Below, piece after piece: positions 6,182-55,178 of a DNA stretch of 64,000 bases; position 1 is the first letter of the stretch; every line of letters begins with the position of its first letter. This DNA is from Oxalobacteraceae bacterium CAVE-383 (lineage in GTDB: Bacteria > Pseudomonadota > Gammaproteobacteria > Burkholderiales > Burkholderiaceae_D): assembly GCA_004134995.1 (NCBI GenBank), contig REGP01000005.1, positions 62,001 to 126,000 on the forward strand, read 5' to 3'. The notes under the pieces are model-generated. The model saw only the letters and a list, made by a program, of their open reading frames with translations. It ran no database searches and was not told where the DNA came from. The translations under genes were made by a program, and so were the position numbers.

Positions 6182-6249
6182 TGCAATCTGCCTGTCATTG
6201 GAGGTTGAACTACGATACGACGATGTTTATGGAACGCGTTTCATACATA

Positions 6250-7581: not shown

Positions 7582-7622
7582 AAGATCAGTTGGTGCCGGT
7601 GGAGATTTCGCCTAAATCGTTC

Positions 7623-7664
7623 ATGAACGCATTTCATCAATATCCGTATGAGGAATGCGTTCAT
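7623..7664. promoter_or_regulatory. Inverted repeat in the yihY-wrbA divergent promoter region
   Basis: A perfect 11-bp inverted repeat, ATGAACGCATT at 7623-7633 and its complement at 7654-7664, with a 20-bp spacer, fills the gap between two divergent genes. Its place and symmetry suggest a repressor or activator site acting on one or both genes. No regulator gene is adjacent. Confidence 0.4.
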
Positions 7665-7666
7665 AA

Positions 7667-8744
<1,078 letters not shown>

Positions 8745-8748
<4 letters not shown>

Positions 8749-10145: not shown

Positions 10146-10150
10146 AGGCT

Positions 10151-10267
10151 GCTGCAAAATGCGGCGAGGCAGGGTGTTGTGCGAAGTGAGGTAAAGGGGG
10201 AATGCGGCCGCAGGCCGCAGGAGGACACGAACGCAGTACAACACCCTGCCTCGCCGCATTTTGCAGC
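10151..10267. repeat. Hairpin element, copy A (conserved core, locus-specific stem)
   Basis: A perfect 30-bp inverted repeat (10151-10180 and 10238-10267) encloses a 57-base loop. The loop contains GTGAGGTAAAGGGGGA, an inner GC-rich palindrome, and GGAGGACACGAACGCAGT. The loop and the innermost GGGTGTTGT/ACAACACCC are shared with copies at 14261 and 22404; the outer 21 bp of the stem are not. It sits exactly between two convergent genes, so it may act as a two-way terminator. Confidence 0.85.
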
Positions 10268-10281
10268 GGCTTCCCAAGTTC

Positions 10282-23853: not shown

Positions 23854-23864
23854 GCGGAGAGCGC

Positions 23865-24689: not shown

Positions 24690-24694
24690 ACTCC

Positions 24695-25565: not shown

Positions 25566-27605
25566 TCAGCTTTCCATTACATACCCGGCATCGAGTTCGG
25601 CCAGCAGCGCAGCCGATTCGAGATCGTTGGCGTTATCGGAATGAATGACGAACAAAGGCTGGCCCACCGCCACCGATTGCCCCACGCCGCACAGCAGGTC
25701 GATGCCCGCGCCCTTGTCCTGCGGCGCACCCGCGCGGCGAGCGATGCCGGCGATGACGAAGCCGTTGATTTCGGTAACCATTCCCGCCCGCGTCGCAAGG
25801 ATCTTTTGCGTCAGCCTTCCCGGCGGAACAGGCGTACGGCGCCCCTGCGCATCGATGATCTTTTCAAAAGCAGCGCGCGCGGCGCCCGAGGCCAGCAATT
25901 TCTCCGCCACTTCCCGGCCTTTGATTTCATCTCCGACCGATGGATCCCAGGCCAATATGCGACTGGCGAAAAACAGTGCTTTTTCGCGCAGGTCGGCCGG
26001 CGCTTCGGGATGCCCGTCGAGCACCCATTCCACGTCGCGCACTTCCAGCGCCGGACCGATGCCGCGCCCGATCGGACGGCTGCCGTCGGTGGTGAAGGCT
26101 TTGACCTGCAGGCCCATGCCGCCGCCGGTCTTTTCAAACAAGTCGGCCAATGCCCTGGCCTCTTCATAGGTCTTGAGCTTGGTCTGCTTGCCGAACGGCA
26201 GATCGACGATCACATGGGTCGAGCCAGCGGTCAATTTCTTCGACAGAATCGACGCCACCGACCAGCGGTTCGAATTGATTCCCAAAGGACGCGTAATCGC
26301 ATTCATGACATCGTCCACCACGGAATGGTTCAGGCGGCCGTTCCAGGCGATGCACGCGCGCGCCTGGGCCACGCAGCGCCGTACATCATTGACGTCCAGA
26401 TCGACTTTGGCGACCGCTTCCATTGCATCGGCGGTACCGGCAGCGGAAGTAATCGCGCGCGAGGAAGTCTTGGGCATCGCCAGCCCGAACGCAGCCACGA
26501 TCGGCACCACGATCAACGTGATGCGGCTGCCGGGAATGCCTCCCATCGAATGCTTGTCCACCACGATCGGTTCGTCCCAGTGCATCGGCGTCGAAAAGCC
26601 GGCGCGCACCTTGGCCAGCGCCAATACCTCCGCGTCGCTCAGGTGCTTGGTCGCCGTGACCAGGAAGGCGGCGATTTCACTGTCCGCATAACGGCCTTCG
26701 ATGATGTCGCGCAGCAGGATGCGGTATTGCGCTTCGTCCAACTCGCCGCCGTTGACCTTGTCCATCAGTGCCTGGCGGCTGGCCGGCGAGGGCGTGCGCC
26801 GGATCGATACCGCAGCGCCCTCCGGCAATCCCAGCGCCTGAAAGCTCTCCGCCGACAGGCCGATTTCATCGGCCTCCAGTAAAGCCGGCGCATTCATTTT
26901 ATGCATCCTGACGCTGACCGCGGCGCCGCCGCCCAGCACTTCGATCTTGGCGTCGCCGATGTAATCGTCGGCGGACAGCATCTCGCTGCCCATCGGCAGA
27001 TAGCCCACCATTTCCCGTCCGGTATGAATCGGCACGCTGCGCAGGCGCATCCGCTGCGCCGCCTTTTCCAGCGTGAAGATAAAACGCTGGATGCCCTGCT
27101 CCAGGCTGCCGTCGTTCATCACCCGCAATGTTTCGATGTCTTCCGGCAAGGCGTCGACCTGGCGCTGCAGGCGTTTCTTGATTTCGTCTCCCGTTTCCCG
27201 GCCACGGCCCTTGATGCGCGCGGCCAGCACCTCCGGCGGCGCGGTTACTTCAATGACCACCAGCCGCGGCACACAGCCGGACAAGGCCTTGACCATGGCG
27301 CGCGAACCGTTGGCGATGACGTGCCGGCCGGCCTGAAGCGCGTTCAGCAGCGCGACCGGCAGGCCATAGCGCAACCCATGCGCCTCCCAGGTAATCAGGA
27401 AGGAACCGGCAGCGTCGGCGGCGGCGAACTGCGCGGCATCCATCGCCAGATGATCTTCCCCCGGCGCGCCGGCCGGGCGGGTAATGACGCGTTGAGCGAA
27501 AGCAAACCGCTGCGACGCTTCCAGGGAAGCGCGCGCGCCGTCGATCAGCGAATCCTTGCCAGCGCCGCTGGGTCCGACGACGAAGAAAAATGTACCTCCG
27601 CTCAT
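25566..27605 (-). CDS. Fusion: PhnN ribose 1,5-bisphosphokinase + AMP-phosphorylase-type NMP phosphorylase
   Basis: A 679-residue two-domain enzyme. Residues 1 to about 185 are PhnN: a P-loop GPSGAGKDS at 11-19 and a guanylate-kinase-like fold; PhnN phosphorylates ribose 1,5-bisphosphate to PRPP. Residues about 190-679 are a pyrimidine-nucleoside-phosphorylase fold. They include the extra N-terminal domain of archaeal AMP phosphorylases and their motifs [12 protein letters not shown] (350-361) and [20 protein letters not shown] (378-397) in place of the E. coli DeoA forms. AMP phosphorylases release base plus ribose 1,5-bisphosphate, exactly the substrate of the fused PhnN. So the fusion should turn a nucleoside monophosphate plus phosphate plus ATP into free base plus PRPP. 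It starts seven bases after nadC in the same operon. Which nucleotide it uses is inference; NaMN is the best guess from context. Confidence 0.85.
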
Positions 27606-27612
27606 GGTCCGC

Positions 27613-28449
27613 TTACTCCGCTTCGTCCAGGCCGATATCGACGCAGACCGCGGCCTGGTTGAGCTTGCTGGTGGAAATGTAATCGACGCCGGTCTTCGAA
27701 ATGGCGCCGATGGTGCTCAGGTTGATGCCGCCCGATGCCTCCACCTTGCAGCGCCCGCCAACCAGTTTGACGCTTTCGATCATGGCCTCGAGCGGCATAT
27801 TGTCGAGCATGATGACGTCGACGCCCGCTTCCAGCGCTTCCTTGACTTGTTCGATGCGATCGCATTCCACTTCCAGCTTGGTCAGCACCGGCAGTTGGCG
27901 GCGTGCGCGTTCCACCGCCTTGGCGATGCTGCCGCAGACGGCAATATGGTTGTCCTTGATCATGACGCCGTTATCCAGGCCGAGACGATGGTTCAGGCCG
28001 CCGCCGCATGCCACTGCGTGCTTTTCCAGCATGCGCAGGCCCGGCGTGGTCTTGCGGGTATCGATCAGGCGCGCCGAGCTGCCTGCAACGGCGGCGACGT
28101 ATTTTGCCGTTTCGTTGGCGATGCCGGACATGCGCTGCACGATATTGAGCGCGGTGCGTTCCGCGGTCAGCACGCTGCGGGCATTGCCGCTGACGTCGAG
28201 CAGCACATGGCCGGCGTCGACCTTCTGGCCGTCCTTGACGCGCACGATCACCTCCAGTGTCGGATCGTAGCGCTTGAACACGCGCGCGGCGATCTCGATG
28301 CCGGAGACGATCAGCGTCTCGCGGGCGTTCATGTAAAAGGCGCCGGTTTCGTTCGCTTCGATCATCACCTGTGCCGTCAGGTCGCAATAACCGATATCTT
28401 CGGACAGCCACAGATCGATCAGGCGGTCGGTTTGGAATACGTCATACAT
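27613..28449 (-). CDS. nadC: Quinolinate phosphoribosyltransferase, decarboxylating (NadC family)
   Basis: Family reaction: quinolinate + PRPP gives nicotinate mononucleotide + CO2 + PPi. The 278 residues are of normal length and keep the substrate-binding residues: [18 protein letters not shown] (95-112), [17 protein letters not shown] (130-146), [20 protein letters not shown] (149-168), LEVECD and VIMLDNM, then EASGGI. All the Arg, Lys and His contacts known in NadC appear present, so it looks active. It is not beside nadA or nadB but in an importer operon next to the nicotinate-catabolic genes, just before the PhnN-phosphorylase fusion. A second, biosynthetic nadC probably exists elsewhere. 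A ModD-like function is a less likely alternative. Confidence 0.88.
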
Positions 28450-28501: not shown

Positions 28502-29245
28502 TCACTTGTGATGCACGCGCCGGTCGAACTGCATGAACAGCGCATTGCAGAACACCGCGAAAACGGTCAGCAGCAAGGCCACGGCCATGATGGTTGCGAT
28601 ATCGCCCAGCCCCATCGCATTCGTGATGAGATAGCCGAGGCCGCGTTGCGAAGCGAACATCTCCCCGATCAGCACACCGAGCAGCGTCAGCGAAAAGCCC
28701 AGGCGCAGGCCGGAAATCACTTCCGGCAGGATCGCCGGCAACAACACGTGCAGCACGGTCTGGCGCAGCGGCACATGCATGGTCTTGGCCGCGCGCAGGT
28801 ACACCGGCCGCATCTGGCGGATGCCGTTCATCGTGAAAATCAGGATCGGTATCAGGCCATGCATTACCCCGAACGCCACCTTGGCCGACAGGCCGAGTCC
28901 AAACACCAGCAGAATCAGCGGATACAAGGTGACCTTGGGAATCGAATACAGATTGAGCAGGATCGGTTCGGCGACATTGCCGGACAGGCGATGCAATCCC
29001 AACAGGATGCCCAGCGCAATGCCGCCGGCCAGCGCCAGAACCAGCGCATACAGCAAGGCCTTGCCGGTCTCGAACATATGCGGGTTGAGTTCGCCCGAGG
29101 CGAGCATGCTGCACAACTTGACCAAGGTGACCCAAGGCGACGTCAAGGCGCCGGCGCCGACGATCGCATGCATCAGTTGCCAAAGCAGGACCAAAGCGAT
29201 CAGCACCAGCGCCGTGCCGCGCGATTTCTTGATGGAATTAATCAT
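28502..29245 (-). CDS. ABC transporter permease (NitT/TauT family), second of a pair
   Basis: Inner-membrane permease of 247 residues from the ATG at 29245; an upstream ATG at 29290 would add 15 residues but lacks a ribosome-binding site. The helices include GTALVLIALVLLWQLMHAIV and the coupling loop LRAAKTMHVPLRQTVLHVLLP, with GVLIGEMFASQRGLGYLI. It follows the other permease by 58 bases and precedes nadC by 52. Two different permeases in one operon imply a heterodimeric channel. Confidence 0.88.
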   Translation of the reverse strand: MINSIKKSRGTALVLIALVLLWQLMHAIVGAGALTSPWVTLVKLCSMLASGELNPHMFETGKALLYALVLALAGGIALGILLGLHRLSGNVAEPILLNLYSIPKVTLYPLILLVFGLGLSAKVAFGVMHGLIPILIFTMNGIRQMRPVYLRAAKTMHVPLRQTVLHVLLPAILPEVISGLRLGFSLTLLGVLIGEMFASQRGLGYLITNAMGLGDIATIMAVALLLTVFAVFCNALFMQFDRRVHHK

Positions 29246-29303
29246 GTGCCGTATCCCTTTGAGCGTGTGATTGGAATGTAATCCGGACATATGCGCATGG
29301 CGA

Positions 29304-30095
29304 TCACCGCCGTCTGCGCGCCTGGAAGCGGCGATCGACCAGATTCAGAACCATATTGATCAGCGTCACCAGCAACAGGACGAACAGCATCAGCGCGTAC
29401 ATGTCGCGGCTTTCGAAATTGTTGTAGGTAAAGGCGATGGCGTAACCGATGCCTGTGCCCGACAGGATGAATTCCGAGGCGATCACGCCGATGAAGGCGT
29501 AGGCGACCGACAGTTTCACGCCGGTAAACAGATACGGCAGCGCGGCGGGCAACTCAATGAACAAAGCGGTGCGCCAGCGCGGCAGCCGAAATACCTTAGC
29601 GCTTTTGCGCATGGCGTTGGGGATGCGGTCGAGTCCGCTCAGCGTGGAAGTAATCATGGTGGCGATCGCCAGCAGCACGCCGATGACAATGATCGGCAGC
29701 GAGCCGACGCCGAACATGACAATGAAGACCGGATAGAAAATAAAAGTCGGCACCGCGTAATAACTGGCCAGCAGAGGCTCGACCGCGCTCCTGAGCGGCG
29801 GCCAGGAATGAATCGCCAGCCCCATCAGGAATCCCAGCAGGATCGCGATCACCGATGCGGCGAGAATGTTCAGCAGGCTGACACGGATGTCCTGGCCGAA
29901 TTTCCCCGAGGCCAATATCTCGCACATATGCACGAACATCTGCGACGGCGCGACCATCACGTCTACCGGAATCGTTCCGGAGCGGCACAATACTTCCACT
30001 ATCAGGATCAATCCGGCGATCACCGCCAGACGCAGCCAGCTTTCGATTTTCACGTCATTGCCTTTCACTTGTGCGGTTGGAACGCACGCATGCAT
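29304..30095 (-). CDS. ABC transporter permease (NitT/TauT family), first of a pair
   Basis: Inner-membrane permease of 263 residues. The ATG at 30095 overlaps the ATPase stop (TGATG), and an internal GTG 33 bases later is a possible alternative start. Helices begin LRLAVIAGLILIVEVL; the coupling loop is MRKSAKVFRLPRWRTALFIE, and GVIASEFILSGTGIGYAIAF follows the family pattern. It pairs with the permease at 28502. Confidence 0.87.
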   Translation of the reverse strand: MHACVPTAQVKGNDVKIESWLRLAVIAGLILIVEVLCRSGTIPVDVMVAPSQMFVHMCEILASGKFGQDIRVSLLNILAASVIAILLGFLMGLAIHSWPPLRSAVEPLLASYYAVPTFIFYPVFIVMFGVGSLPIIVIGVLLAIATMITSTLSGLDRIPNAMRKSAKVFRLPRWRTALFIELPAALPYLFTGVKLSVAYAFIGVIASEFILSGTGIGYAIAFTYNNFESRDMYALMLFVLLLVTLINMVLNLVDRRFQARRRR

Positions 30096-30961
30096 CAATG
30101 CGCATGCGCGGCGCCCATCAGCTTCATCGATTCGACCCGCAGTTTTTCCCACAGCCTTGCATTGATTTCGCCGAAGCGCGGCGTCGAGACCACACGGCTG
30201 TCGCGATCGCGCTCCCAGCCGGTTTCGACAAAATCGATGAACAGGCCCGGCCGGGCCGACATCACGCCGACACGATCCGACAACATGGCGGCCTCATCCA
30301 GCGCATGCGTGATCAGCAACACCGTGGCCGAGGTCTCGCGCCACAGGCGCAGCAATTCGTCGCCCATCAGCAAACGGGTCTGCTGATCGAGTGCGCCGAA
30401 GGGCTCATCGAGCAGGATCATGCGCGGCTGCGTGACCAGAGTGCGGGCGATGCAGACCCGCTGGCGCATGCCGCCCGACAGCTGCGACGGATAGGCCTTG
30501 GCGAAATCCTTCAGGCCCATGAATCCGATCGCGTAGTCGACCCTGCGCTGTACTTCAGGGCCATCGAAGCCGGACCAGCGCAGGCCGAACGCAATGTTGT
30601 CACGCACTGTCAGCCAGGGAAATGACGCATCCTCCTGGAACACCACGCCGACGCCGTCCGGCACGCCCTTCACGGGACGGCCTTCGAATACGGCCGAGCC
30701 GGAAGTCGGTTCGGCCAGCCCCGCCAGCACGTCGAGCAAGGTCGATTTTCCGCAACCGGACGGACCGACCACGGAGAAAAATTCGCCTTTGTTCAATGTC
30801 AGGTCGATGGGGCCGAGGGCATGAAACTTTTCCTTGCCGCCGGCCTTGTTGAAATACTGCGTGACTTCCTTCAGGCAGGCGTGCACGTTGCCCAGCGCGG
30901 GCACTTCCGCCTTTGCCGCCGTGCCGAAGCCGTAAGCCGCCTTCTTGAAAACCATATTCAT
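30095..30961 (-). CDS. ABC transporter ATPase of the nic/nadC-linked importer
   Basis: Cytosolic ATPase of 288 residues. Walker A VGPSGCGKSTLLDV, Q-loop VVFQEDASFPW, signature QLSGGMRQRVCIARTL, Walker B MILLDEPFGALDQ, and LLITHALDEA are all intact. The ATG at 30961 shares one base with the binding-protein stop (TAATG) and has GAAAGGAAA just upstream. It joins the importer that leads the operon ending in nadC and the PhnN-phosphorylase fusion. Confidence 0.92.
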   Translation of the reverse strand: MNMVFKKAAYGFGTAAKAEVPALGNVHACLKEVTQYFNKAGGKEKFHALGPIDLTLNKGEFFSVVGPSGCGKSTLLDVLAGLAEPTSGSAVFEGRPVKGVPDGVGVVFQEDASFPWLTVRDNIAFGLRWSGFDGPEVQRRVDYAIGFMGLKDFAKAYPSQLSGGMRQRVCIARTLVTQPRMILLDEPFGALDQQTRLLMGDELLRLWRETSATVLLITHALDEAAMLSDRVGVMSARPGLFIDFVETGWERDRDSRVVSTPRFGEINARLWEKLRVESMKLMGAAHAH

Positions 30962-31950
30962 TATTTTCCTTTCAGATCGGCAGGCAGATAACTGGCGTCG
31001 ATCAGGCTGCTCCAATCCACCGGCCCGGTCACCTCGCCGATCAACCGCAGCCCGTCGATCATGCGATCCAGTTCGGCCTGATTGAATTCGCCCCTGCTCC
31101 ACATCTTTGGACCGATCATGTTGTCGACCGCCTGCTTGGCGTCGCCCGGGGTGAGTTTGAAATCGCGCTCCAGGATCTTGGCGGCGCCGGCCGGATCGGC
31201 GTACAGCGCATCGACACCGGCGCGGCGGCCGTTAATGATGGCGCGCAACTTGTCCGGCGACTCCTTGGCGAATTTGCGGGTGGTGATGCCGACCGAAGTC
31301 GTCATCGGCTTGAGCACGTCGCCGGCGCGGTAAACCGTGGCGTATTTATCCTTGCGGATGATCGACAGCGGTTCGATCAGCACGGCCGCCGATACCGCAC
31401 CCTGCTCCAGCATGGTGAGGCCATTGACGTAACCGCCCGAAGCGATGCGGGTCACCTTGGCCGGATCGATGCCCTTTTCCTGCAACACCATCATCAGCAG
31501 CATTTCGGACACGCCCTTGGGCGAGGTGATTGCGACCTTTTTACCGACCAGGTCCGCCACCGTCCTGATGCCCGAATTCGGCATGGCCACCATCGAGGCT
31601 TCAGCCACGCTGCGCGTGCCGACGTTGACGATCACCACATCCAGACCCTGGCGCTGCGCCGCCAATGCCGCGGAAACCGCCACTTCGCCATACGGCGTCG
31701 GGCTGGCGAGAATATTGCGCACGGTGGTGCCGCCGCCGCCCGAACTCAAGATGCCTGTGATATCGATGCCGGCCTTCTTGAACAGTCCCTTGTCCATCGC
31801 CACGGCATACGGCAAGCCATACAGGCTCTGCCCCCATTGGGTTACCGAGATTTCCTCTGCCTGCGCGACGCCTGGCACCGCTGCGGCAATGACGGGGAAT
31901 AATATGAGGCAGTTGATGAAAGACCGTATTTTCCGCAAGCGTGATTTCAT
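30961..31950 (-). CDS. ABC transporter substrate-binding protein of the nic/nadC-linked importer
   Basis: Periplasmic binding protein of 329 residues, NMT1/TauA type. The ATG at 31950 opens a signal peptide MKSRLRKIRSFINCLILF ending GVAQA. The mature part begins EEISVTQWGQSLYGLPYAVA and includes GILSSGGGGTTVRNILA and LVGKKVAITSPKGVSEMLL. It leads the operon importer - nadC - fusion, 81 bases downstream of a candidate NicR site. From context the ligand may be a pyridine carboxylate such as quinolinate or nicotinate; this is inference. Confidence 0.87.
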   Translation of the reverse strand: MKSRLRKIRSFINCLILFPVIAAAVPGVAQAEEISVTQWGQSLYGLPYAVAMDKGLFKKAGIDITGILSSGGGGTTVRNILASPTPYGEVAVSAALAAQRQGLDVVIVNVGTRSVAEASMVAMPNSGIRTVADLVGKKVAITSPKGVSEMLLMMVLQEKGIDPAKVTRIASGGYVNGLTMLEQGAVSAAVLIEPLSIIRKDKYATVYRAGDVLKPMTTSVGITTRKFAKESPDKLRAIINGRRAGVDALYADPAGAAKILERDFKLTPGDAKQAVDNMIGPKMWSRGEFNQAELDRMIDGLRLIGEVTGPVDWSSLIDASYLPADLKGK

Positions 31951-32676
31951 GATGAAACTCTCCAGGTTAGGGGCAGCAAAAAAGCAATAAAGACGCATAT
32001 CGTTCGGAAGTCCTGATTCCGGCCAATTAAAATGATGTACACATCATTCATTTATTGAATTAGCAAAATATGGGCCACCTGCTTTTGTTTCTGCATAAAA
32101 ATTCTTTTTATATCTAACTTATTGATTTCTATGTCTTAAATAAAATTTAAAGCAAAATAAAAACCTTTTTGAAAATAATAACTTCAAGCACAAATTAATA
32201 GCGTACACGCTCCATAAAAAGGCGAAACATGTCATTCGCACTGTGAGAGTGCATTACCCGCAGAGCACAAGCGCCTGAAAAGCGCGGTGCAATCACGGGC
32301 AACACAAGCAAATATTCAATGTACACATTTTATTTAAAAGCCATCTCGAAAACATGGCGAATGAACGTAAAATAAAATAATATTATTTAATCACCAAATA
32401 AATACTTCTTTTACTTAGAAATTGGCAGTAAATGTCTCACGGCAAATTTAATTTTTATCTTTGCGATTTTTATGAATATATAACGTATGCACTTAATTAA
32501 CAAGTGTGTACGTTATATTTTTAAAATAAACCACGCGTCGGAAAAGCTGCCGAAGGAAGATAAAGGCGGTCGGATTGAAGGGGTTTATGAAAAACGGGTC
32601 TTTAAGGTATGATGACCCGGCAAATCGGCCGATCCCTCAATCATTTCCCAGCATCCGAAGTCAGGAAGACCTATCC
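31951..32676. promoter_or_regulatory. AT-rich divergent control region between the importer operon and nicR
   Basis: A 726-base stretch much richer in A+T than the genes around it, with no convincing ORF. It carries three TGTACACA/TGTGTACG-type sites: AATGATGT-AC-ACATCATT at 32031-32048 (perfect 8-2-8 palindrome), AATGT-AC-ACATT at 32318-32329, and the right half of a 14-bp inverted repeat at 32481-32494 and 32502-32515 (12 of 14 paired). Related motifs lie before nicE and nicC. These are candidate NicR operators. Confidence 0.55.
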
Positions 32677-33114
32677 GTGTCCGATCATCAAACTTCATCC
32701 AAATATGTTTTTTCCGAGCAGGTCGGCCATTTGTTGCGGAGGGTTTATCAACGGCACGTCGCCATCTTCCAGCAGAACATCCCCGACTCTCAACTGACCG
32801 CGGCGCAGTTCGTGACGATGTGCGCGATCCAGGAATACGCGCCTTGCTCCCTGAGCGAGATTGTCAAGGCAACCGCGATCGACCAGGCGACGGTACGCGG
32901 AATTGTCGAACGATTAAAGGCGCGCAAATTGATCACGGTGACCCATGATGCCGAAGACAAGCGCAAGCTCATGGTGGCGCTGACGCCTGCCGGCACGCAG
33001 TTGGTGAACGAGACCGTTCCTTTCGCGCATCAGATTACCGAAAGCACTTTCGGCAACCTGAATCCGGCGGAACGCCTGGCCCTGATGCATTTATTGCGCA
33101 AGATGGCCGAGTAG
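32677..33114 (+). CDS. nicR: MarR-family regulator, probable repressor of the nic genes
   Basis: A winged-helix MarR protein. The GTG at 32677 has AGGAAG eight bases upstream and gives 145 residues, the usual MarR size; starts at 32587 (ATG) or 32575 (TTG) would extend it. The DNA-binding core is LTAAQFVTMCAIQEYAPCSL, SEIVKATAIDQATVRGIVER then the wing ITVTHDAEDKRKLMVALTPAG. In Pseudomonas putida NicR is a MarR repressor of nicotinate genes, released by 6-hydroxynicotinate. Position at the end of the nic cluster and beside the importer operon supports the name; function is inferred. Confidence 0.8.
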   Translation: MSDHQTSSKYVFSEQVGHLLRRVYQRHVAIFQQNIPDSQLTAAQFVTMCAIQEYAPCSLSEIVKATAIDQATVRGIVERLKARKLITVTHDAEDKRKLMVALTPAGTQLVNETVPFAHQITESTFGNLNPAERLALMHLLRKMAE

Positions 33115-33137: not shown

Positions 33138-35402
33138 TCAGGTATTCAGCGCAGCCAGGATCCTGGCTGCCGTAAACGGCGGCTCGCGCAGGCGCTTTCC
33201 CATGGCATCGAACAAGGCATTGGCGAGCGCGGCCGCGCTCGGCACCGAAGCCGATTCTCCCGCGCCCAGCGGCGGCTGGTCCTGGCGCGGCATCAATACC
33301 ACCTCGATCGGCGGCACGTCGCTGAAGCGCGCAATCGGATAGGCGCCCCACTCCAGGCTCGTCGCGGCGCTGCTGCTGAAGCGCGCTTCTTCCTTGAGCA
33401 CACGGCTCAATGACTGAATCACATTGCCGTGCAATTGATGCCTCACCCCATCCGGATTGACCATCATGCCGGTGTCCTGCCCGACCACCAGCCGCTCGAC
33501 GCGGACGGCGCCATTGACGGGGTCGACGCTCACATCGATGATCCATGCCGACCAGGCGGCGCCGAAACCGGGAAACTTGCTGTGGATATAGCGCGCATAG
33601 GCCACGCCGCGGCCGCGCAACAGCCCGTCGGCCCCCGCAGCCCCACGCGAACCTCTCGCCCCGTTTTCCCAACCGGCGCGGCTTGCGACCGCTTCGATCA
33701 GTTCGATCGCACGGGCATCGTCCAGATGGCGGATGCGAAACGCAACCCGGTCGGCGCCGGACTGTACCGCCATTTCATCCAGGAAGGCATCGTGCGCGAA
33801 TGAATTCGGCAGCGCGGATACGCCGCGCAACCAGGCCGCGCGCACAATGGCCGGCAGATCGTTGCAGACGATGCGCTTGTGCCGGTACCGGTATGGCGGC
33901 GCCGCGGTGCGGTCGCCCATTTCCAGCACCCGGGGCTGTGCCGATACCGTGCCGGTCAACAGCAGCGCCAGGGTCGGCGCATCGTTGGATGGATAACGCA
34001 CCGAAAAATCATAGGCCAGCAGATTGCCGTCGGCGTCCGCCGCGCCGCTTACGTCGACCAGCTGCGCCGCGCCTTTCGGCTCCCATGCGTGTTCCTGCTC
34101 GCGCGAAAGCTGGACCCGCACCGGCCGGCCTGTCGCCCGCGTCAACAGCGCCGCATCGGCGCAGACATCGTCGGCGCAATTGCGGCCGTAGCAGCCGGCG
34201 GCTTCCATGCGGATGATTTCGATGTTCGATTCATCCATCTTCAGCAGCCGCGCCAGATCGATGCGCATCACATGCGGATTCTGCGTTCCGGACCAGACGC
34301 TGAGCTGGCCGCTTTCCGGATCCAGCGAAGCCAGCGCGCAGGACGGGCCGATCGAGGCATGCAATTGATACGGCCAGACGTAGGTTGCATGCAGCACAGT
34401 ATGCGCATCCGCCATGGCGCGATCCACTGCGTTGTCGTCGATCAGCATGCGGCGGGTGGCGGCCCGGCCGCGCATGGTCGATTCCAATTGCCGCATATCC
34501 GGCAGCGGCGGGTGCGGTTTCCACGTCACTTTCAACTGCCGTGCCGCCTTGACGGCCTGCTCCTCGCGCTCGGCCACGACACCGATGAAGTCGCCGATCA
34601 CCACCACCTCGACGATGCCGGGCAGATGCGCGATGGAGCCGCGATCGACACCGATCAGGCTATGGCCGACAAAGTCGCCGCTGTCGAGCCCGGCATACGG
34701 CGGACGCACCACCCGGCCATGCAGCATGCCGGGCAGGCGCAGGTCGTGCACATAGGTCAATTCGCCGAAGGCCTTGGCCGGAATATCCACCCGCGGCATG
34801 CTGCGGCCTACCAGACGATAATCGGCGGAAGGCTTCAGGACCACCTCGTCGGCCAGCGGCAGTTCGATATGCCGGCCGGAGACCAGACTGCCGTAGCCGA
34901 TGGCGCGATCCGACAGCCGATGGCAGACCACGCCGTCGATCACATGCAGTTCTTCGGCCGGCAACGCCAGCATCGAGGCGGCAAGCTGCAGCAAATGCAG
35001 CCTGGCCTGCGCGGCGGCGCGGCGCAGCGGAACGGCGGATATCTGGATGGTGGCGCTGGCGATGGTCGGCCCCTGGTTCGGCGCGGCTTCGGTATGGCCC
35101 AGCACCATCGTCACATGCGACAAGGGAACGTCCATTTCCTCGGCCACGATCTGCGCCAGCGAGGTGCGGATGCCGGTACCCAGATCGACGTGGCCGTTGA
35201 ACGCCATGATGCGTCCGCTGTCCTGCACGGCGATGAAAACATCCGGTTGCGAAGGCAGATAGGACGACGCGGCGCCCGGCTGGCCGGGCGCGGGCTGGGC
35301 CGCCGGCTGCGGCGCGCGGGTAATCAACAGCACGCCCGCGCCGTCGAGCAAGGCGCGGCGGCCGGCTTTCGGTGTCACATGCGTTGTTGCAGGCAGGCTC
35401 AT
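33138..35402 (-). CDS. Nicotinate dehydrogenase molybdopterin subunit (separate large subunit)
   Basis: A 754-residue aldehyde-oxidase/xanthine-dehydrogenase-type molybdopterin subunit, similar to the N-terminal part of P. putida NicB. An RR-containing start (KAGRRALLDGAGVLL) recalls the Tat-like N-terminus of IorB-type subunits. FNGHVDLGTGIRTSLAQIVA and GPTIASATIQISAVPLRRAA bind cofactor, GCYGRNCADDVCADAALL lies near the active site, and GAGESASVPSAA holds the catalytic Glu at about residue 716. It has no haem motif. Last gene of nicE-nicD-nicX-nicF-Mo, while nicA and the haem-bearing nicB are divergent 5 kb away. Start at 35402; a longer reading to 35435 is less likely. Confidence 0.82.
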   Translation of the reverse strand: MSLPATTHVTPKAGRRALLDGAGVLLITRAPQPAAQPAPGQPGAASSYLPSQPDVFIAVQDSGRIMAFNGHVDLGTGIRTSLAQIVAEEMDVPLSHVTMVLGHTEAAPNQGPTIASATIQISAVPLRRAAAQARLHLLQLAASMLALPAEELHVIDGVVCHRLSDRAIGYGSLVSGRHIELPLADEVVLKPSADYRLVGRSMPRVDIPAKAFGELTYVHDLRLPGMLHGRVVRPPYAGLDSGDFVGHSLIGVDRGSIAHLPGIVEVVVIGDFIGVVAEREEQAVKAARQLKVTWKPHPPLPDMRQLESTMRGRAATRRMLIDDNAVDRAMADAHTVLHATYVWPYQLHASIGPSCALASLDPESGQLSVWSGTQNPHVMRIDLARLLKMDESNIEIIRMEAAGCYGRNCADDVCADAALLTRATGRPVRVQLSREQEHAWEPKGAAQLVDVSGAADADGNLLAYDFSVRYPSNDAPTLALLLTGTVSAQPRVLEMGDRTAAPPYRYRHKRIVCNDLPAIVRAAWLRGVSALPNSFAHDAFLDEMAVQSGADRVAFRIRHLDDARAIELIEAVASRAGWENGARGSRGAAGADGLLRGRGVAYARYIHSKFPGFGAAWSAWIIDVSVDPVNGAVRVERLVVGQDTGMMVNPDGVRHQLHGNVIQSLSRVLKEEARFSSSAATSLEWGAYPIARFSDVPPIEVVLMPRQDQPPLGAGESASVPSAAALANALFDAMGKRLREPPFTAARILAALNT

Positions 35403-35496
35403 GACTATTCCCGTCGAATCGGTAAAACCATACAAGCAAGAACCTTGCCGATGAATACGCCGTTTGCGGCTTATCTGTACGGTTTATCTATACGGT

Positions 35497-36123
35497 TTAT
35501 GCCGCGGCGATCGCGGCCAGCGCATCTTGCATCGGCATGACCGAAGCATATTTCTGCCCCATATCGAACAGATTCGCGTCGTGCGGCCCGATGGCGCGGT
35601 CGCCCACGCAGTCGGACAGCACCAGCGGCCGGAAGCCCCACGACATGGCATCGACCACACTGGCCCGCACGCAGCCGCTGGTGACCGCGCCGGCCACCAG
35701 CAGCGTCTGCACGCCATGCCGGGTCAGCCATGGCGCCAGCGAGGTGCCGAAGAACGCGGACGGCACCGTCTTGCGCACCACCAGTTCTCCCGGCGCCGGG
35801 GTGAGCTCCGGCACGATCGCGCTGTTCGGATGGTGTTCCTTCAGCGTCACCATGCCGGGCACTTTCAGGCCAAAAATGTTGTTGTCGGCTGCGTCGTCGG
35901 CGAACACGATGCGGCTATGCGCCACCGGCCAGCCCTGCTTGCGCGCATGGGCCAACAGCAGCACCGTATTGGCAATCGCCGGTGCGATATTGCCGCCGCC
36001 GAACACCTGCGGATCGGCGAAGCCGTTGACGAAGTCGACGATCAGCAGTCCGTACGGCGGCTTGATTTCGAGCGCATTGCCAAAACCCTGCTTCTGATAA
36101 GTACCCAGTTCCGCATGCATCAT
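35497..36123 (-). CDS. nicF: Maleamate amidohydrolase
   Basis: Hydrolyses maleamate to maleate and ammonia in nicotinate catabolism. About 208 residues with the isochorismatase/cysteine-hydrolase triad: Asp in YGLLIVDFVNGFADP, Lys in LVVRKTVPSAFFGT, and the nucleophilic Cys in AGAVTSGCVRASVVDAM. The first ATG at 36123 overlaps the nicX stop (ATGA); a second ATG three bases on is equally possible. Order nicX-nicF matches its use after NicD. Confidence 0.93.
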   Translation of the reverse strand: MMHAELGTYQKQGFGNALEIKPPYGLLIVDFVNGFADPQVFGGGNIAPAIANTVLLLAHARKQGWPVAHSRIVFADDAADNNIFGLKVPGMVTLKEHHPNSAIVPELTPAPGELVVRKTVPSAFFGTSLAPWLTRHGVQTLLVAGAVTSGCVRASVVDAMSWGFRPLVLSDCVGDRAIGPHDANLFDMGQKYASVMPMQDALAAIAAA

Positions 36124-37202
36124 TTTTCTCCGGAGTATTTTGAATTGCTGGCTGGTTGGCGCTGCGCCTCGGCATCGCATACCTTGCCGTTGTCGACCAT
36201 GATTTCGCCGTCCAGCGATACGGTGCAATTGCGCAGCGGAATATCGATATGGCAGGCCGGCGCGCGCTGGCCGCCGGCTTCATTGTTGGGCCCGAAAGAG
36301 AACAGGAAATTGCCTTCGTAGGCGCGCGCGTCCATGCCGATGGTCGCCTCGCGGTTGTACATGGCCAGCGCCGACCAGTGCGCGCGCGGCTGCAAACCCC
36401 AGCCGACATGCGACATCGCATAGGCGTCCGGATCATTGAAGGAAGCCATGTAGCCGGCCAGCAGTTGCGCATCGAAACTGCCCTTGATGCCGGTGACGAA
36501 GCCGTTCTCGACGGTCACATGGATGGGGTCCTGCACATAGGCCTTGATAGGCAGGATGATGTCGCCGCGATCGATCACCAGGGTGCCGTTGGTGCCGCCC
36601 TCATTGGGCCAGGTCAATGCAAACCCGGACGGCCAGTGATCCCAGCGGCCCGGCTCATCCACCAGGCCGTATTCGGCGATCGCCGGAAATTCGCCGAGCC
36701 CGCAGCGCAAATCGGTGCCGGCGGCGGAGACGATATGCATCTCCTTGGCCACAGCCATCCGATCGGCCGCGCGTTTGACGCGGATGCGATCGGCCGCGTT
36801 CGGCACCATGCGCACCAGCACTTCCGGCGGCTCCACCGCCAGCAATATCTTGGTGCCGGCCTTCAGGATTTCATGCTGTTCCGGCGAAAACAGCAAGGTC
36901 ATCAGATCCAGCACAAGATCGCTTTCCTTGAGCGCGGCGATGGCGGCGCGATTATTGGTAAGCGGCGTCGTGCCGAGATAAGCCAGCGAATCGCGGCTGA
37001 TGGCCTTTTCGCCATTGACCGGCTGCAGGTCGAGGCGGTTGGCGGTGGCGCCCAGCATCTGCACCGCCGTGATCGCGGTCGACATGGTCTGGGCATGCGT
37101 GGAAGCGCCGGTCAGGACGGTAACGATCTGTCCGGGCGCCAGTCGGGAAAGGCTCAATACCTGTTTCCAGGCCTCGATCATGTCGTGGTCGCTGACTGCC
37201 AT
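36120..37202 (-). CDS. nicX: 2,5-dihydroxypyridine 5,6-dioxygenase
   Basis: Iron(II)-dependent ring cleavage of 2,5-dihydroxypyridine to N-formylmaleamate. The 360 residues carry the metal ligands at the positions known in P. putida NicX: His265 in AMSHVGWG, His318 and Asp320 in PACHIDIPLRN. The fold is related to M29 aminopeptidases. It lies 21 bases after nicD and overlaps nicF. Confidence 0.95.
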   Translation of the reverse strand: MAVSDHDMIEAWKQVLSLSRLAPGQIVTVLTGASTHAQTMSTAITAVQMLGATANRLDLQPVNGEKAISRDSLAYLGTTPLTNNRAAIAALKESDLVLDLMTLLFSPEQHEILKAGTKILLAVEPPEVLVRMVPNAADRIRVKRAADRMAVAKEMHIVSAAGTDLRCGLGEFPAIAEYGLVDEPGRWDHWPSGFALTWPNEGGTNGTLVIDRGDIILPIKAYVQDPIHVTVENGFVTGIKGSFDAQLLAGYMASFNDPDAYAMSHVGWGLQPRAHWSALAMYNREATIGMDARAYEGNFLFSFGPNNEAGGQRAPACHIDIPLRNCTVSLDGEIMVDNGKVCDAEAQRQPASNSKYSGEK

Positions 37203-37223: not shown

Positions 37224-38045
37224 TCAGACCGGATGGCCGAGAAAATCCCCGAAGGCCGCGTAAAAGCCGGCTTCGTTGTCCCAAGGGATCATATGCCCCG
37301 CATCGTCCACCTTCGCCACGGTGGCCTGCGGCAGCAACTGCCCGATCTCGTCGATGTCGGGCGGCAGCAGCACGTCGCCGCGGCTGGCGACAATCAGGTG
37401 CGACGGGATTTTGACGTGCGGCAGGTCGGCGTGGATATCGTCGGTATGAAAGGCGTTGAAACTGGCGACGATCGCGCCCTCGTTGCAGGTATGCAGCCAT
37501 TCGGCGCGCAGGCGCAATTGTTCCTCGCTCCATGTCGGGCAGAACGCGCGCATGTCTTCCGCGCTGCAGCCGCGGCGCGCCAGTGCCATCGAGTCGACAT
37601 ACCAGGGTAGCCTGGACGGATACGCGCGGCGGCCGGGACCGGAAACCGGCGGATCGATCATCACCAGGCGCGTCAGGCCCGGCGGCTGCAGGCGGGCCGC
37701 GCGGATGCCGATGCGCCCGCCCATCGAATGGCCGACCAGCGCGTATTCGCCCAGTCCGAGCGCGGCGGAAAAAGCGATCGCGTCGGCCGCCTGGGCGTCG
37801 ATGCCGTAATCGAGCGCATCGCCCGCATCCGATAAGCCGCGGCCGCGCACATCCAGGATATAGGTATCAAAATGCAGGCCGAAACGTTCGCCGACAAAGC
37901 CCCAGGTAATCGCCGGGCTGGTGATGCCGGGAATGATGACGACCGCGGTGCGCGCCCCCCGTCCGCCCTGGTCGCCGCCGTAGCGCAAATAATGCTGGCG
38001 GATGCCGTTGGCCTGGACATTGGCGCCGTAAAGAAATGTACTCAT
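37224..38045 (-). CDS. nicD: N-formylmaleamate deformylase
   Basis: Hydrolyses N-formylmaleamate to maleamate and formate. A 273-residue alpha/beta hydrolase with Ser107 in LVGHSMGGRIG, Asp131 in VMIDPPVSG and His251 in DDAGHMIPWD, the same spacing as the Ser101/Asp125/His245 triad of P. putida NicD. The ATG at 38045 gives the family N-terminus; the longer reading to 38231 runs back over nicE. Follows nicE by 23 bases. Confidence 0.93.
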   Translation of the reverse strand: MSTFLYGANVQANGIRQHYLRYGGDQGGRGARTAVVIIPGITSPAITWGFVGERFGLHFDTYILDVRGRGLSDAGDALDYGIDAQAADAIAFSAALGLGEYALVGHSMGGRIGIRAARLQPPGLTRLVMIDPPVSGPGRRAYPSRLPWYVDSMALARRGCSAEDMRAFCPTWSEEQLRLRAEWLHTCNEGAIVASFNAFHTDDIHADLPHVKIPSHLIVASRGDVLLPPDIDEIGQLLPQATVAKVDDAGHMIPWDNEAGFYAAFGDFLGHPV

Positions 38046-38068
38046 GCTGCTCCCCGCAAAAGACGGCT

Positions 38069-38821
38069 TTAATACGCGCCGGACAACAGGGCGCCCGCGC
38101 CCGGAACAATGGTTTCCAGCTTCAGCGCGCGCAGCATCGCGTAGGTGGTGGCGACCGCGGCGGTAATCACCGGCTTGCCGGTCATGGCTTCGACCTTGGC
38201 AATCACCGGCAGCGACGGCATCTGCACGCAAGCCGACAACACGATTGCGTCGACATTGCTTGTATCCATTTGCGCCACGATCGCCGGCAGATTGGCCGGG
38301 TCGTGCAGACCCACCTCCAGATTGTCCGCAATTTCCAGGGCGCGATAGTCGGCCACCTCGAAGCCTTCATGGCGAATGTAATCGACCACCAGTTCGGTCA
38401 GCGGCTTCATGTAAGGCGCGACCACCACGATGCGCCTGGCGCCGATGACCTTCAACGCATCGATCAGGGCGCCGGCGCTGGTGATGACCGGCGCGTCGGC
38501 GCCGTTGGCCGCGGTATGGTCGGTCAGGCGTTTTTCGGAAGCGCGATGATAACCATGTCCCATCGCCATGATAGCCACCAGGCAGGCATACCCCAGCACA
38601 TCGACGCGGGCGTCGCTGAGCTCCAGCGCGCAGCGATCCGATTCGCCGTCCATGGCGGCCAGTTCTTCCTTGACCACTTTTTTCATGCGCATGCGGCTGG
38701 AATGGAAAGTGAAGCGCTCGGGGCGGATCGCCTGGCGCGCATTGAGCATGGCGGGAATCTCGGTCTCCATGGTGGTATTGGAGCTGGGGACGATCTGACC
38801 GATTCGATAGCTTTTCTTCAT
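38069..38821 (-). CDS. nicE: Maleate cis-trans isomerase
   Basis: Converts maleate to fumarate, the last step of the Nic pathway. A 250-residue member of the Asp/Glu racemase superfamily with two catalytic cysteines, Cys80 in DVLGYACLVAIM and Cys198 in DAIVLSACVQMPSL, matching Cys82 and Cys200 of P. putida NicE in spacing. The N-terminus RIGQIVPSSNTTMETEIPAM is typical. First gene of the minus-strand nicE-D-X-F-Mo operon, 36 bases downstream of a candidate NicR site. Confidence 0.95.
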   Translation of the reverse strand: MKKSYRIGQIVPSSNTTMETEIPAMLNARQAIRPERFTFHSSRMRMKKVVKEELAAMDGESDRCALELSDARVDVLGYACLVAIMAMGHGYHRASEKRLTDHTAANGADAPVITSAGALIDALKVIGARRIVVVAPYMKPLTELVVDYIRHEGFEVADYRALEIADNLEVGLHDPANLPAIVAQMDTSNVDAIVLSACVQMPSLPVIAKVEAMTGKPVITAAVATTYAMLRALKLETIVPGAGALLSGAY

Positions 38822-40309
<1,488 letters not shown>

Positions 40310-40359: not shown

Positions 40360-40848
40360 ATGTCCAGGCCAAACGAGTTCTGTCTCGATGTCAATAACGT
40401 ACGGCATGCGCTGAGCCTGCCGGCGGACGTGCCGCTGCTCTATGTGTTGCGCAACGACCTGGCCCTGAACGGACCGAAATTCGGCTGCGGCATCGGCGAA
40501 TGCGGCGCCTGCACCGTGCTCATCGACGGCGTCGCGGCAAGATCGTGCGCGATGCCGGTCGGCGTGGCGGTCGGCCGCAAGGTGCTCACGCTGGAAGGAC
40601 TGGGCGGCCGGGCCGATCCGGATCCGGTGCAGCAGGCCTTCATCACCGAACAGGCCGCGCAATGCGGCTATTGCCTCAACGGCATGATCATGAGCGTCAA
40701 GGCGCTGCTGCTGCGCAATCCCGACCCGACCGAAGCGCAAATCCGTTCCGAACTCGAATTCAATCTTTGCCGTTGCGGCACGCATGTGGAAATCATGCGC
40801 GCCGCCAAATTGGCGGCCGGATTGAGCAAGGCCGCTGCCCATGAATGA
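40360..40848 (+). CDS. nicA: Nicotinate dehydrogenase small [2Fe-2S] subunit
   Basis: Iron-sulfur subunit that passes electrons from the molybdenum centre during hydroxylation of nicotinate at C6. The 162 residues hold a plant-type cluster, GPKFGCGIGECGACTVLIDG plus the later SC, and the second cluster CGYCLNGMIM with CRCGTHVEIM. NicA passes electrons to the c-type haems of NicB. It overlaps nicB by eight bases, and lies 50 bases after nicC. Confidence 0.95.
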   Translation: MSRPNEFCLDVNNVRHALSLPADVPLLYVLRNDLALNGPKFGCGIGECGACTVLIDGVAARSCAMPVGVAVGRKVLTLEGLGGRADPDPVQQAFITEQAAQCGYCLNGMIMSVKALLLRNPDPTEAQIRSELEFNLCRCGTHVEIMRAAKLAAGLSKAAAHE

Positions 40849-43800
40849 GATCGGTCCGGGCAATGCCGGAGGTGGAGGCGGAAGCGGAGGCGAAGGTGCG
40901 ATAGCAGCGTCCGGCGAACAGATTCTTTACGCGCGCGTAGTGCGCCCGCCCTGGCTGGCTTGGGACGGCGCCGCGTATTGCGGCGCGCAGTTGCTGCACA
41001 TCGACGAAACCTCGCTGGCGGAGCTGGCCGCCATGACGGGCATCGTACGCGTCTTCACGCAGCGCAATTTCGTTGCCGTGGTCGCGTACAGCGATGCCCA
41101 AGCGGCGATCGGGGCGCGCCGTCTGCGGGTTCACTGGTCGCTGCCGAAATCGCCTCCCGCCCGGCAATCCGGCGACCGCACACCGGCGCCGAAAACATCC
41201 GCCATCCTGTTTGAGCGCGGCGACGTGGACGCCGCCTTCGAGAACGCGGATACGCCGATCGAACGCGCTTATGCATGGCCATCCGTGCCTGCGCCGTCTG
41301 CCCCAGTCTCGACCTGGGCGCTGGCCTGGCATGGCGGGCATGAATTGACCGTATGGATGCCGCGCCCCGCGGCATCGCATCCGCAGCATGCCTTGCGCAC
41401 CGAACTGGCGGCGCTGCTGAATATTCCTCCCGGCGCGATCACGCTGATCGGCGCAGACAATACCAACGACACCGCGGCCGATGCCGCCCTGCTTTCGCAT
41501 ATCATGCGCCAGCCGGTGCAGGTGACATCACCGGCGCCGGACCGCCAGGGCAACGTGGCCGGCGAAGATGCCGACCGCACCCTGTACCTGGTCAGCCGCA
41601 TCGATGGCGCATTCGACACGGACAAGAAATTGACCGGCTATCGCTATTCGTCCGGTCCATCGCCGCAGGCAGCGCCCGCGCTCGCGCTGCTGCTGACCGG
41701 CGTCGCCGTCGCCATCGACGACATCGCCGCACCGCCCGCAGGGCAAGGCGCGATGCCGCCCTATGCTTATCCGAATATACGCATCGCCGAGGATCGCCAT
41801 TGCGCGGCCGCGAATGCATCGCCCGCACCGCCGGCCTCTCTTGCCGCGATAGAAAAAGCACGTATCGATGCCGCCGTATTCGCTCATGAATCTTTCGCGA
41901 CCGAAGCAGCGTTGCAGGCCGGCATCGATCCGGTGGCATTTCGCCTGCGGCATCTGGCCGATGGCCGCGGCGCGCAGCTGATCGCAAGCGTTGCGCAGCA
42001 AGGCGATTGGCGACCACAGTCGTCCGCCGCCGCCGCAAAGGCCGCATCCGATGGACTGATGCGCGGACGCGGATTCGCTTATGCGCACGTGATCGAAAAC
42101 CAGGCCGGCAAGACGGTTCAGTCGTGGTCGGCGTGGATTGCCGACGTTGCCTACGACCGCGACAGCGGCGATATCAGCGTCAGCCGCGTGATAGTCGGAC
42201 AGGATGCGGCGCAATCGGACAGCGCAGGCGATGCCGGACGGGCTTCCGGATTGACGATTACCCGGCAACTCGAAGGCGAGGCCATCGATGCCGCACGCCT
42301 GCTGTTGCAGAATGCGCCGGCGTTCGATACCTGGGGCAGCGATATCGCCGAACCTGCACCGGCCCGCACACCAAGCATCGCACCGCAATTGACCGGCGCC
42401 GATTTACCGATCCGCCAACGAGCCGGCGCGGAACTCGGTCCCGGCGGTGCGCAACTGGCCGGCGGCGCGGCGTTCTCGCTACCGGCTGCCGCGGCGCTCG
42501 CCAATGCCATCTACGATGCCACCGGAGTACGCCTGCGCGAACCGCCCTTTTCCGGCGAACGCATTCGTCTGGGGCTTGCGGAAAACGCCGGCGCCACGGT
42601 AAAACCATACAAGAAGTGGCTGGCCGCCGGCGCCGCCGTGGCCACCGCCTTGATCGGCATCGTGACACTGGCGCTGCCCTGGCGCGCGCCGATCGCACCG
42701 GTAGCGCCGCCCGATCCGGCCCTCTATTCCGCCGCGGCCATTACGCGCGGCAAACTGGTCGCCGCCGCCGGCGACTGCGTGGTATGCCATACCGCGCCGG
42801 ACGGCATCAAAAATGCCGGCGGCCTGGCGCTGGACACGCCATTCGGAACCATCTACAGCACCAACATCACACCCGACGTGGAAACCGGCATCGGCAACTG
42901 GTCGTATGCCGCCTTCGAACGCGCCATGCGCGAAGGCATTCGCCGCGACGGCAAGCACTTGTATCCGGCCTTCCCCTATACCGCTTTCGCCAAGACCAGC
43001 GATGCCGATCTGCAGGCGCTGTACGCCTATCTCATGGCGCAGGAACCGGTCAAGGCCGATCCGCCGAAAACCAAACTGGCGTTTCCATTCAACGTGCGTC
43101 CGTTGATGGCCGGCTGGAATCTGCTGTTTCACAATCCCGATGCGTATCGGCCCGACCCGTCCCGATCCGCCGAATGGAACCGCGGCGCCTATCTGGCAGA
43201 AGGACTCGGGCATTGCGGCGCCTGCCACACGCCGCGCAATGCCATGGGCGCGGAAAAAGGCCTGCGCGCCTATCTGAGCGGCGGCATGGCGGAAGGCTGG
43301 GAAGCCCCTGCGCTGACATCGCTGTCGAAGGCGCCGATTCCGTGGACGGAAACGGATCTGTTCGACTATCTGCGCACCGGATTTTCGCCGTTGCATGGCG
43401 TAGCCGCCGGGCCGATGGGACCCGTGGTGGCGGAAATGGCGCAAATGCCGGAATCGGACGTAAAGGCGATCGCGCATTACATTGCATCCTTCGGCAAGCC
43501 GGCCGCTGAAGCCGTCCCCGCGGTGCAGGCAGCACAGGCGCTTCCGGCCACTCAAGACCTGCAGCCGGCCCAGGCCGCCCTTGCCGCGCGGATCGAACAG
43601 AACAATGCAGCCTCCGCCCGCACTTTGAGCGGCAACGGCAAAAATATTTATGAAGGCGCGTGCGCGGTTTGCCATCAGGCCGACTTGGGCCCGGCCTTAT
43701 TCGGCGTAAAACCTTCGCTGGCGCTGAACACCAATCTATACAGCGCCACGCCCGACAACCTGGTGCGCGTGATCCTCAATGGCATCAACACCCCGGCGCA

Positions 43801-55116: not shown

Positions 55117-55132
55117 ATCATTTCAGGAAACG

Positions 55133-55178
55133 ATCACGCCGCCAGCTTTGGTTTTCTTTGCTGGGCTGGCGGCGTGAT
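55133..55178 (-). terminator. Stem-loop between the RTX gene and its exporter genes
   Basis: A perfect 14-bp inverted repeat (55133-55146 and 55165-55178) with an 18-base loop. No T-run follows on the minus strand, so it may be a partial terminator or an mRNA stabiliser that makes RTX mRNA more plentiful than that of the exporter. Confidence 0.5.

Follow-up and report, generated by a model that had tools for sequence, protein, structure and literature searches.

The 64,000-nucleotide stretch of Oxalobacteraceae bacterium CAVE-383 analyzed here (contig REGP01000005.1, positions 62,001 to 126,000; hereafter the window) contains a gene for a NadC-type quinolinate phosphoribosyltransferase followed by a gene that fuses the ribose 1,5-bisphosphokinase PhnN to a nucleoside monophosphate (NMP) phosphorylase-type enzyme. 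This pair is likely to be a catabolic module in which imported quinolinate is converted to nicotinate and CO2, with phosphoribosyl pyrophosphate (PRPP) as a recycled carrier. In the first step of the proposed cycle, NadC would convert quinolinate and PRPP to nicotinate mononucleotide (NaMN), CO2, and pyrophosphate (PPi), which is the known reaction of this enzyme. In the second step, which would be a new activity, the phosphorylase domain would split NaMN with phosphate (Pi) into nicotinate and ribose 1,5-bisphosphate (R15BP). In the third step, the PhnN domain fused to the same enzyme would convert R15BP and ATP to PRPP and ADP, as PhnN is known to do. The net reaction would be quinolinate + ATP + Pi to nicotinate + CO2 + ADP + PPi. 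Nicotinate would then enter an adjacent pathway, encoded by nic genes in the window; in other bacteria, this pathway would be a 6-hydroxynicotinate reductase route.

A broader reading is probable as well, and is held with slightly less confidence. According to it, a fused, R15BP-forming NaMN phosphorylase works with a NadC of its own clade, transient N-ribosylation decarboxylates the pyridine ring, and the same polypeptide regenerates PRPP, which acts as a catalytic carrier. The cassette would have been passed between Beta- and Alphaproteobacteria, where it stands ahead of two unrelated nicotinate pathways. We know of no R15BP-forming NaMN phosphorylase in any organism. If the reading is correct, it would add a new mode of ring decarboxylation and a hitherto unknown enzyme activity, and would give an enzyme of NAD biosynthesis a catabolic role. 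Quinolinate is both a neuroactive product of tryptophan and an environmental pyridine, and the organisms feeding on it would become predictable from sequence. Annotations would also be corrected for genes now labelled as NAD biosynthesis, phosphonate metabolism, or thymidine phosphorylase.

The NadC–fusion gene pair

The nadC gene occupies positions 27613..28449 on the minus strand and encodes 278 amino acids. The protein scores 317.1 bits with the equivalog model TIGR00078 (cut-off 198.4), and its assignment is also based on alignment to solved quinolinate phosphoribosyltransferases and on a tree. A ModD-type paralog was ruled out, as the ModD model gives 125.5 bits, below its cut-off of 178.85. 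The stretches that we take to form the substrate site are intact in an alignment to 1x1o and 5hul, as the initial annotation had proposed for the substrate residues. The fusion gene (25566..27605, minus strand, 679 amino acids) follows after a gap of seven bases. Its residues 4–181 exceed the cut-off of the PhnN equivalog TIGR02322 (187.8 against 156 bits) and remain under that of a second PhnN model, NF007485 (117.7 against 153 bits). The P-loop of this domain is invariant in 26 of 26 sequences. Residues 185–678 belong to the PRK04350/TIGR02645 family, with 604.1 bits for NF003338 (cut-off 434) and 443.6 bits for TIGR02645 (cut-off 434.6). The early description of the pair as a NadC gene seven bases from a PhnN–phosphorylase fusion is thus borne out by TIGR00078, TIGR02322, and NF003338.

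By fold and sequence kinship, the second domain of the fusion is predicted to be an R15BP-forming NMP phosphorylase of the AMP-phosphorylase kind. The fold searches with the fusion structure are silent on the PhnN part, because their matches were filled by the phosphorylase domain. At 33 of 43 fusion loci, the matched stretch is approximately 90–100 residues shorter, with most of the domain at residues 185–270 missing. Comparison of 53 fusion sequences with 25 stand-alone phosphorylases identified residues characteristic of the fusion: N422 (100%), H427 (100%), N435 (98%), R447 (96%), and W448 (98%). Stand-alone enzymes carry G (100%), L (100%), I (92%), G (88%), and Q (92%) at the equivalent positions, and the archaeal NMP (AMP) phosphorylase of T. 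kodakarensis (4ga4/4ga5) carries G, L, I, G, and L. A few further alignment columns also set the fusion apart from the stand-alone enzymes. S452, the counterpart in the alignment of human Ser217 (described as base-binding in the available text of PMC2719695), lies five residues after R447 and four after W448; H352 aligns with human His116. The fusion-only residues are predicted to line the base pocket. A further difference from the archaeal enzyme is that the product of the fusion would go to PRPP via the fused PhnN, not to ribulose bisphosphate.

The two genes form a unit. A genome scan with the fusion alignment, covering the best 80 of 98 relatives, yielded 43 loci with the phosphorylase part and 37 with PhnN only. 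Together with three plasmid loci and loci from further genomes, 53 fused loci were read, and NadC lies upstream of the fusion on the same strand in 52 of them; the remaining one, L075, starts at a contig end. L072 and L140 duplicate contigs of L034 and L048; once they are set aside, all 50 of the 50 distinct readable loci have NadC ahead of the fusion. Five of these loci (L128–L132) were chosen from 23 Burkholderiaceae fusion genomes. By comparison, NadC was found in none of 65 control loci, where a phosphorylase or PhnN occurs alone; for 28 of these controls, the flanks span 1.5 kb only. The co-occurrence of nadC and fusion sought at the outset is therefore complete in this sample, and a chance neighbourhood is ruled out by the 50 of 50 conservation and the 0 of 65 controls. 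In ten Cupriavidus-group loci, the two genes are separated by about 1 kb containing a divergent MarR gene. The module occurs in many soil and freshwater bacteria.

In a quick tree, the fusion-tied NadCs and one other protein form a single clade (SH-aLRT 99) apart from a sample of 14 ordinary NadCs. The odd member is the additional NadC encoded in the genome of the window, and four NadCs of 57% identity are sisters of the clade. The NadCs of Bosea (Alphaproteobacteria) are nested within betaproteobacterial sequences (SH-aLRT 86), which suggests that the Bosea module was acquired through transfer.

Several side observations concern these genes. Genome G311 (L059) has two equally scoring fusion-type NadC genes on separate contigs and one lower-scoring gene. 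The NadCs of the bins at L078, L080, and L115, labelled Bordetella parapertussis, Methylopumilus, and Methylobacterium, are almost identical to those of Alcaligenaceae or Bosea bins, and these labels are doubtful. NadCs on Paracoccus and Paenibacillus plasmids, with no annotated fusion adjoining (the Paenibacillus record is unannotated there), yielded nothing useful. An FRG-domain gene is repeatedly found next to the pair (7 of the 43 scan loci); the loci with this gene are L034 (13539-14303), L045, L046, L055, L069, L072, L079, L081, L083, L084, L129, L131, and L132.

Nicotinate degradation and NAD synthesis

The second line of evidence is the association with nicotinate degradation. Among 249 Burkholderiaceae genomes, nicX was detected in 21 of 23 fusion carriers and in 45 of 226 others (Fisher p=8.6e-12, in a test that ignores kinship among genomes), where the fusion was counted at E up to 1e-120 and nicX (n=66) at E up to 1e-100. 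The expected co-occurrence of nic genes with the fusion is thus found in this family, often with the genes adjoining: in 10 of the 23 carriers, nicX and the fusion are no more than 12 kb apart. The nic genes flank the pair in L066, L068, L070, L128, L129, and L130, the last three of which were fetched because nicX was near. In an order-wide sample of 300 genomes, nicX was present in 20; identity reached 60% or more in six of these, two of which are fusion carriers.

Another nicotinate pathway adjoins the pair elsewhere. A putative 6-hydroxynicotinate reductase lies within 10 kb in 11 of 43 fusion loci and in 0 of 37 PhnN-only loci. It is 66–70% identical to plasmid proteins; among 15 listed, some are annotated hnr and others hypothetical or unannotated, with nicB annotated near one. 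No Pfam or NCBIfam model matched the reductase. It is accompanied by a UPF0280 gene (10 of 43 fusion loci) and by amino-acid-synthesis-family genes (11 of 43). Among 67 Bosea genomes, the genus of one Bosea carrier, 31 carry the fusion (split over two contig ends in G620) and 40 the reductase, which is present in 30 of 31 fusion genomes and in 10 of 36 others (p=1.9e-9 in the same kind of Fisher test). The reductase lies within 15 kb of the fusion in 15 of these 31 genomes, and two Bosea loci additionally carry NicA and NicB. The reductase adjoins the pair in Bosea and Jezberella, and nic genes adjoin it in the window, some Cupriavidus, and other Burkholderiaceae. Of the 43 fusion loci, 14 have nicX or the reductase within 10 kb, against none of the 37 PhnN-only loci from that scan; one PhnN-only locus, L117, has a NicA-like 2Fe-2S match. 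The explanation that the nicX link reflects mere taxonomy is weakened, because a within-genus association exists in Bosea for the other pathway; for nicX itself it may still hold.

The number of NadC genes bears on the alternative of NAD synthesis. The initial annotation had raised the possibility that the module's nadC is the only copy in the genome. This is not the case in the genome of the window, where a second NadC gene, 81% identical, is located at C3:816529. A second importer–NadC operon without the fusion stands there (L033, G000:C3:807001-827000, 6042-10359; 62–85% identical), in which a related importer precedes NadC; this NadC copy is perhaps now the NAD-making one. In the congener G178, an ordinary nadC lies immediately downstream of nadA. 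At the equivalent place in the window's genome, nadA and nadB are present (TIGR00550 and TIGR00551 over cut-off) and an ordinary nadC was not found, although it could have been missed in an assembly of 11 contigs and 98.97% completeness. Since nadA and nadB are kept and the ordinary nadC is gone, NAD synthesis in this genome must, by inference, use a NadC of the fusion-tied clade, which would thus make NaMN from quinolinate. Among 38 fusion genomes of relatives, a further nadC occurs in 21, of which 20 have a nadA match over cut-off; these 21 are exactly the genomes that carry nicX.

The main alternative, considered improbable, is quinolinate salvage for NAD. In this scenario, quinolinate would be imported and turned by NadC into NaMN for NAD, and the fusion would only supply PRPP via R15BP derived from ordinary nucleotides. 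Such a role would suit the 17 of 38 genomes in which the module's NadC is the sole one and the 15 of 38 in which nadA has no match; it also agrees with the available part of PMC11452294, where the presence of bug27 next to nadC and phnN (Variovorax and Jezberella) is interpreted as NAD metabolism. It does not suit the 21 genomes with a further nadC, nearly all with nadA, nor the location of the module beside two different nicotinate-degradation systems, nor the operator-like site that the window's operon has in common with nicE/nicC. Moreover, the residue changes near the base site of the phosphorylase would presumably be unnecessary in a general NMP phosphorylase.

The catabolic reading has to be weighed against several observations that count against it. 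In the 17 single-NadC genomes, the module's NadC may function in NAD synthesis as well, or exclusively, and NAD salvage is possible in the 15 genomes with no nadA match. Among the nine non-Bosea single-NadC genomes, seven yielded neither nicX genome-wide nor a reductase within 10 kb. The gene nicX is absent from 2 of the 23 Burkholderiaceae carriers, neither nicX nor the reductase lies within 10 kb in 29 of 43 fusion loci, and part of both Fisher associations may reflect kinship. The phosphorylase domain could act on other NMPs. It remains below the cut-off of the AMP-phosphorylase equivalog TIGR03327 (376.5 against 535 bits), and the earlier label of AMP-phosphorylase type therefore holds at the level of kind (TIGR02645 and NF003338) and not of that equivalog. 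In addition, three loci with PhnN but neither NadC nor phosphorylase (L088–L090) have surroundings resembling some Alcaligenaceae modules, and no operator-like site with up to two mismatches precedes NadC in Cupriavidus, Bosea, or Alcaligenaceae loci.

Import, regulation, and known systems

Importer genes of several types accompany the pair. An NMT1-type ATP-binding cassette (ABC) importer is present in the window, L046, L048, and L131, TctC/Bug proteins in 13 of 43 fusion loci, a major facilitator superfamily carrier in 9 of 43, and a TAXI-TRAP system in L047. The initial placement of the pair behind an ABC importer and next to a nic set is supported by family matches (nicX by position). A Liv-type ABC set lies beside the pair in Alcaligenaceae bins and also beside the lone PhnN of L088–L090, and may therefore not belong to the module. 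In these three loci, PhnN is 56–57% identical to that of the fusion, with the Liv-type set before it and a thiamine pyrophosphate enzyme after it; they have perhaps lost NadC and the phosphorylase.

For the three of 13 TctC-bearing loci that were compared (Jezberella, Variovorax, and Cupriavidus), the Bug27 structure 2qpq is the best solved match: L086 (2.2e-139), L055 (4.8e-136), and L062 (5.7e-108). According to the accessible text of PMC11452294, Bug27 and Bug69 have a Kd of about 0.1 uM for quinolinate, which they prefer at least 40-fold to nicotinate and nicotinamide. These proteins bear on a further alternative, in which the same cycle would serve another substrate: the NadC clade would decarboxylate a different pyridine-2-carboxylate after N-ribosylation, and the product would not be nicotinate itself. 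The window's importer is uncharacterized and transporter families vary among relatives, which leaves some room for it. Nevertheless, this explanation is highly unlikely, given the intact substrate stretches of NadC, the Bug27-like proteins beside the module in the three relatives tested, and the window's genome, where no ordinary nadC was found and NAD synthesis from quinolinate must depend on the clade.

Regulation points to a connection with nicotinate degradation. A 20-mer operator-like site, AATGTACACATTTTATTTAA, lies at 32318..32337 (plus strand) between a MarR gene and the importer–NadC–fusion operon, and is also present in L048. A second copy lies at 38849..38868 (minus strand) between the divergent nicE-like and nicC-like genes. 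The pattern AATGTACACATNTTANTTAA, derived from these same two sites by comparison of two intergenic regions, has only these 2 matches in the window even with 3 mismatches, with 0.00 expected in 64 kb. A consensus built from five sequences gave 21 sites with up to two mismatches in 52 loci (1.096 Mb), 7 of which bear those five sequences. Ten dinucleotide shuffles gave 0 or 1 site each, and 47 control loci gave 0. Each of the 21 sites lies either in the nicE–nicC interval or no more than about 0.7 kb upstream of a NadC or binding-protein gene; four are contained in an open reading frame predicted by a simple gene-caller. Sites precede both the module and the nic genes in the window and L130, and also in L128, where the nic-side site has 3–4 mismatches. 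In the three Cupriavidus loci that carry nic genes, the nicE–nicC site alone was found, and Bosea and Alcaligenaceae loci have no site at this threshold.

The divergent MarR-type regulator (32575..33114, plus strand) is close to BpsR (6pcp/6pco, E about 1e-61; 1.3e-61 for 6pcp). In the available text of PMC6837509, Tyr15, His23, Arg26, and His32 of BpsR hold 6-hydroxynicotinate, and the model is that BpsR bound to the nicC and nicE promoters is released by this compound. All four residues are kept at the aligned positions of the window's regulator; in the Bosea regulators, F replaces His23. A BpsR-type, 6-hydroxynicotinate-sensing repressor thus probably controls both operons of the window. 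Such control would be unexplained, as would the nic neighbours and the importer genes of several kinds, if the fusion merely recycled pyridine nucleotides, breaking NaMN or NMN from NAD turnover into base and PRPP, with NadC clustered for NaMN supply and not for catabolism. NaMN is the metabolite shared by the enzymes and the fusion holds both enzyme types needed, yet this explanation has very little probability.

Known systems share individual features with the proposed catabolic module. In the C–P lyase pathway of phosphonate degradation, the substrate is carried on ribose 5-phosphate, and the carrier is freed as R15BP and converted to PRPP by PhnN. The likeness lies in ribose-carried catabolism with PhnN recycling. 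In the module, by contrast, the carrier would be added by NadC from PRPP, the ring would be decarboxylated, and the cycle would be closed, with no net use of carrier. Quinolinate degradation in Alcaligenes, a process for which a report on strain JQ191 exists, starts by 6-hydroxylation; quinolinate is the growth substrate there, as it would be for the module, but the hydroxylation route involves no PRPP. The nic maleamate and 6-hydroxynicotinate reductase pathways, found beside the module as downstream sets, are known to start from nicotinate. The NadC of de novo NAD synthesis (EC 2.4.2.19) and of quinolinate salvage in Bordetella and Streptococcus has the same reaction and fold. However, the module's NadC forms a separate clade, is operonic with the fusion and often with an importer, is additional to another NadC in 21 of 38 genomes, and is linked to nicotinate breakdown.

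The closest precedent is the description of Bug27/Bug69–nadC(–phnN) neighbourhoods by Sorci et al. (2024, PMC11452294), which include the same neighbourhood in Variovorax and Jezberella and quinolinate-binding receptors. In the accessible part of that paper, PhnN is taken as a PRPP supply for NAD, the phosphorylase domain and nic genes are unnamed, and the string "catabol" is absent. The initial claim that no such pathway is known therefore stands for the cycle, of which no catabolic description was found in the open-licence literature (seen mostly as listings and starts of abstracts), and not for the nadC–phnN neighbourhood, which is already in print with another interpretation.

Importer, nic genes, and other features of the window

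The importer genes lie just upstream of nadC in the same direction (minus strand). They encode two permeases (28502..29290 and 29304..30152; PF00528, both kept in L046, L048, and L131), an ATPase (30095..31102; PF00005), the true start of which is probably near 30964, and an NMT1/SsuA-type substrate-binding protein (30961..31998; PF09084, with TIGR01728 below cut-off).

The nic names are based on family matches for most genes. On the minus strand lie a NicB-like molybdopterin subunit of 765 amino acids (33138..35435; PF20256, PF02738), a NicF-like amidohydrolase of the isochorismatase fold (35497..36228; PF00857), a presumed NicX-like 2,5-dihydroxypyridine dioxygenase (36120..37202), and a NicD-like alpha/beta hydrolase (37224..38231; PF00561). 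The NicX-like protein has no Pfam or NCBIfam match and was named from its position; its orthologs stand among nic genes in L066, L068, L070, and L128–L130. The next gene on this strand (38069..38821), of the maleate isomerase family, is presumably nicE-like; the EutA and arylmalonate decarboxylase models both remain below cut-off. On the plus strand, a flavin monooxygenase gene that we take to be nicC-like (39155..40309; NF006021 233.8 bits, below the cut-off of 459) is followed by genes for a NicA-like 2Fe-2S subunit (40360..40848; PF01799, PF00111) and a NicB-like subunit with cytochrome c domains (40841..43960; PF00034, PF13442, with MoCoBD_1 just under cut-off). The NicB-like function thus seems to be split between 33138-35435 and 40841-43960; in Bosea L054, the molybdopterin and cytochrome c parts occupy one frame of 1174 amino acids.

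Two further features were observed in the window. Another NMT1-type ABC operon (22882-25543, plus strand) is convergent with the fusion gene. At 50056-63930, a very large RTX-repeat protein (2904 amino acids) is encoded together with a type I secretion set (C39 ABC, HlyD, and OEP).

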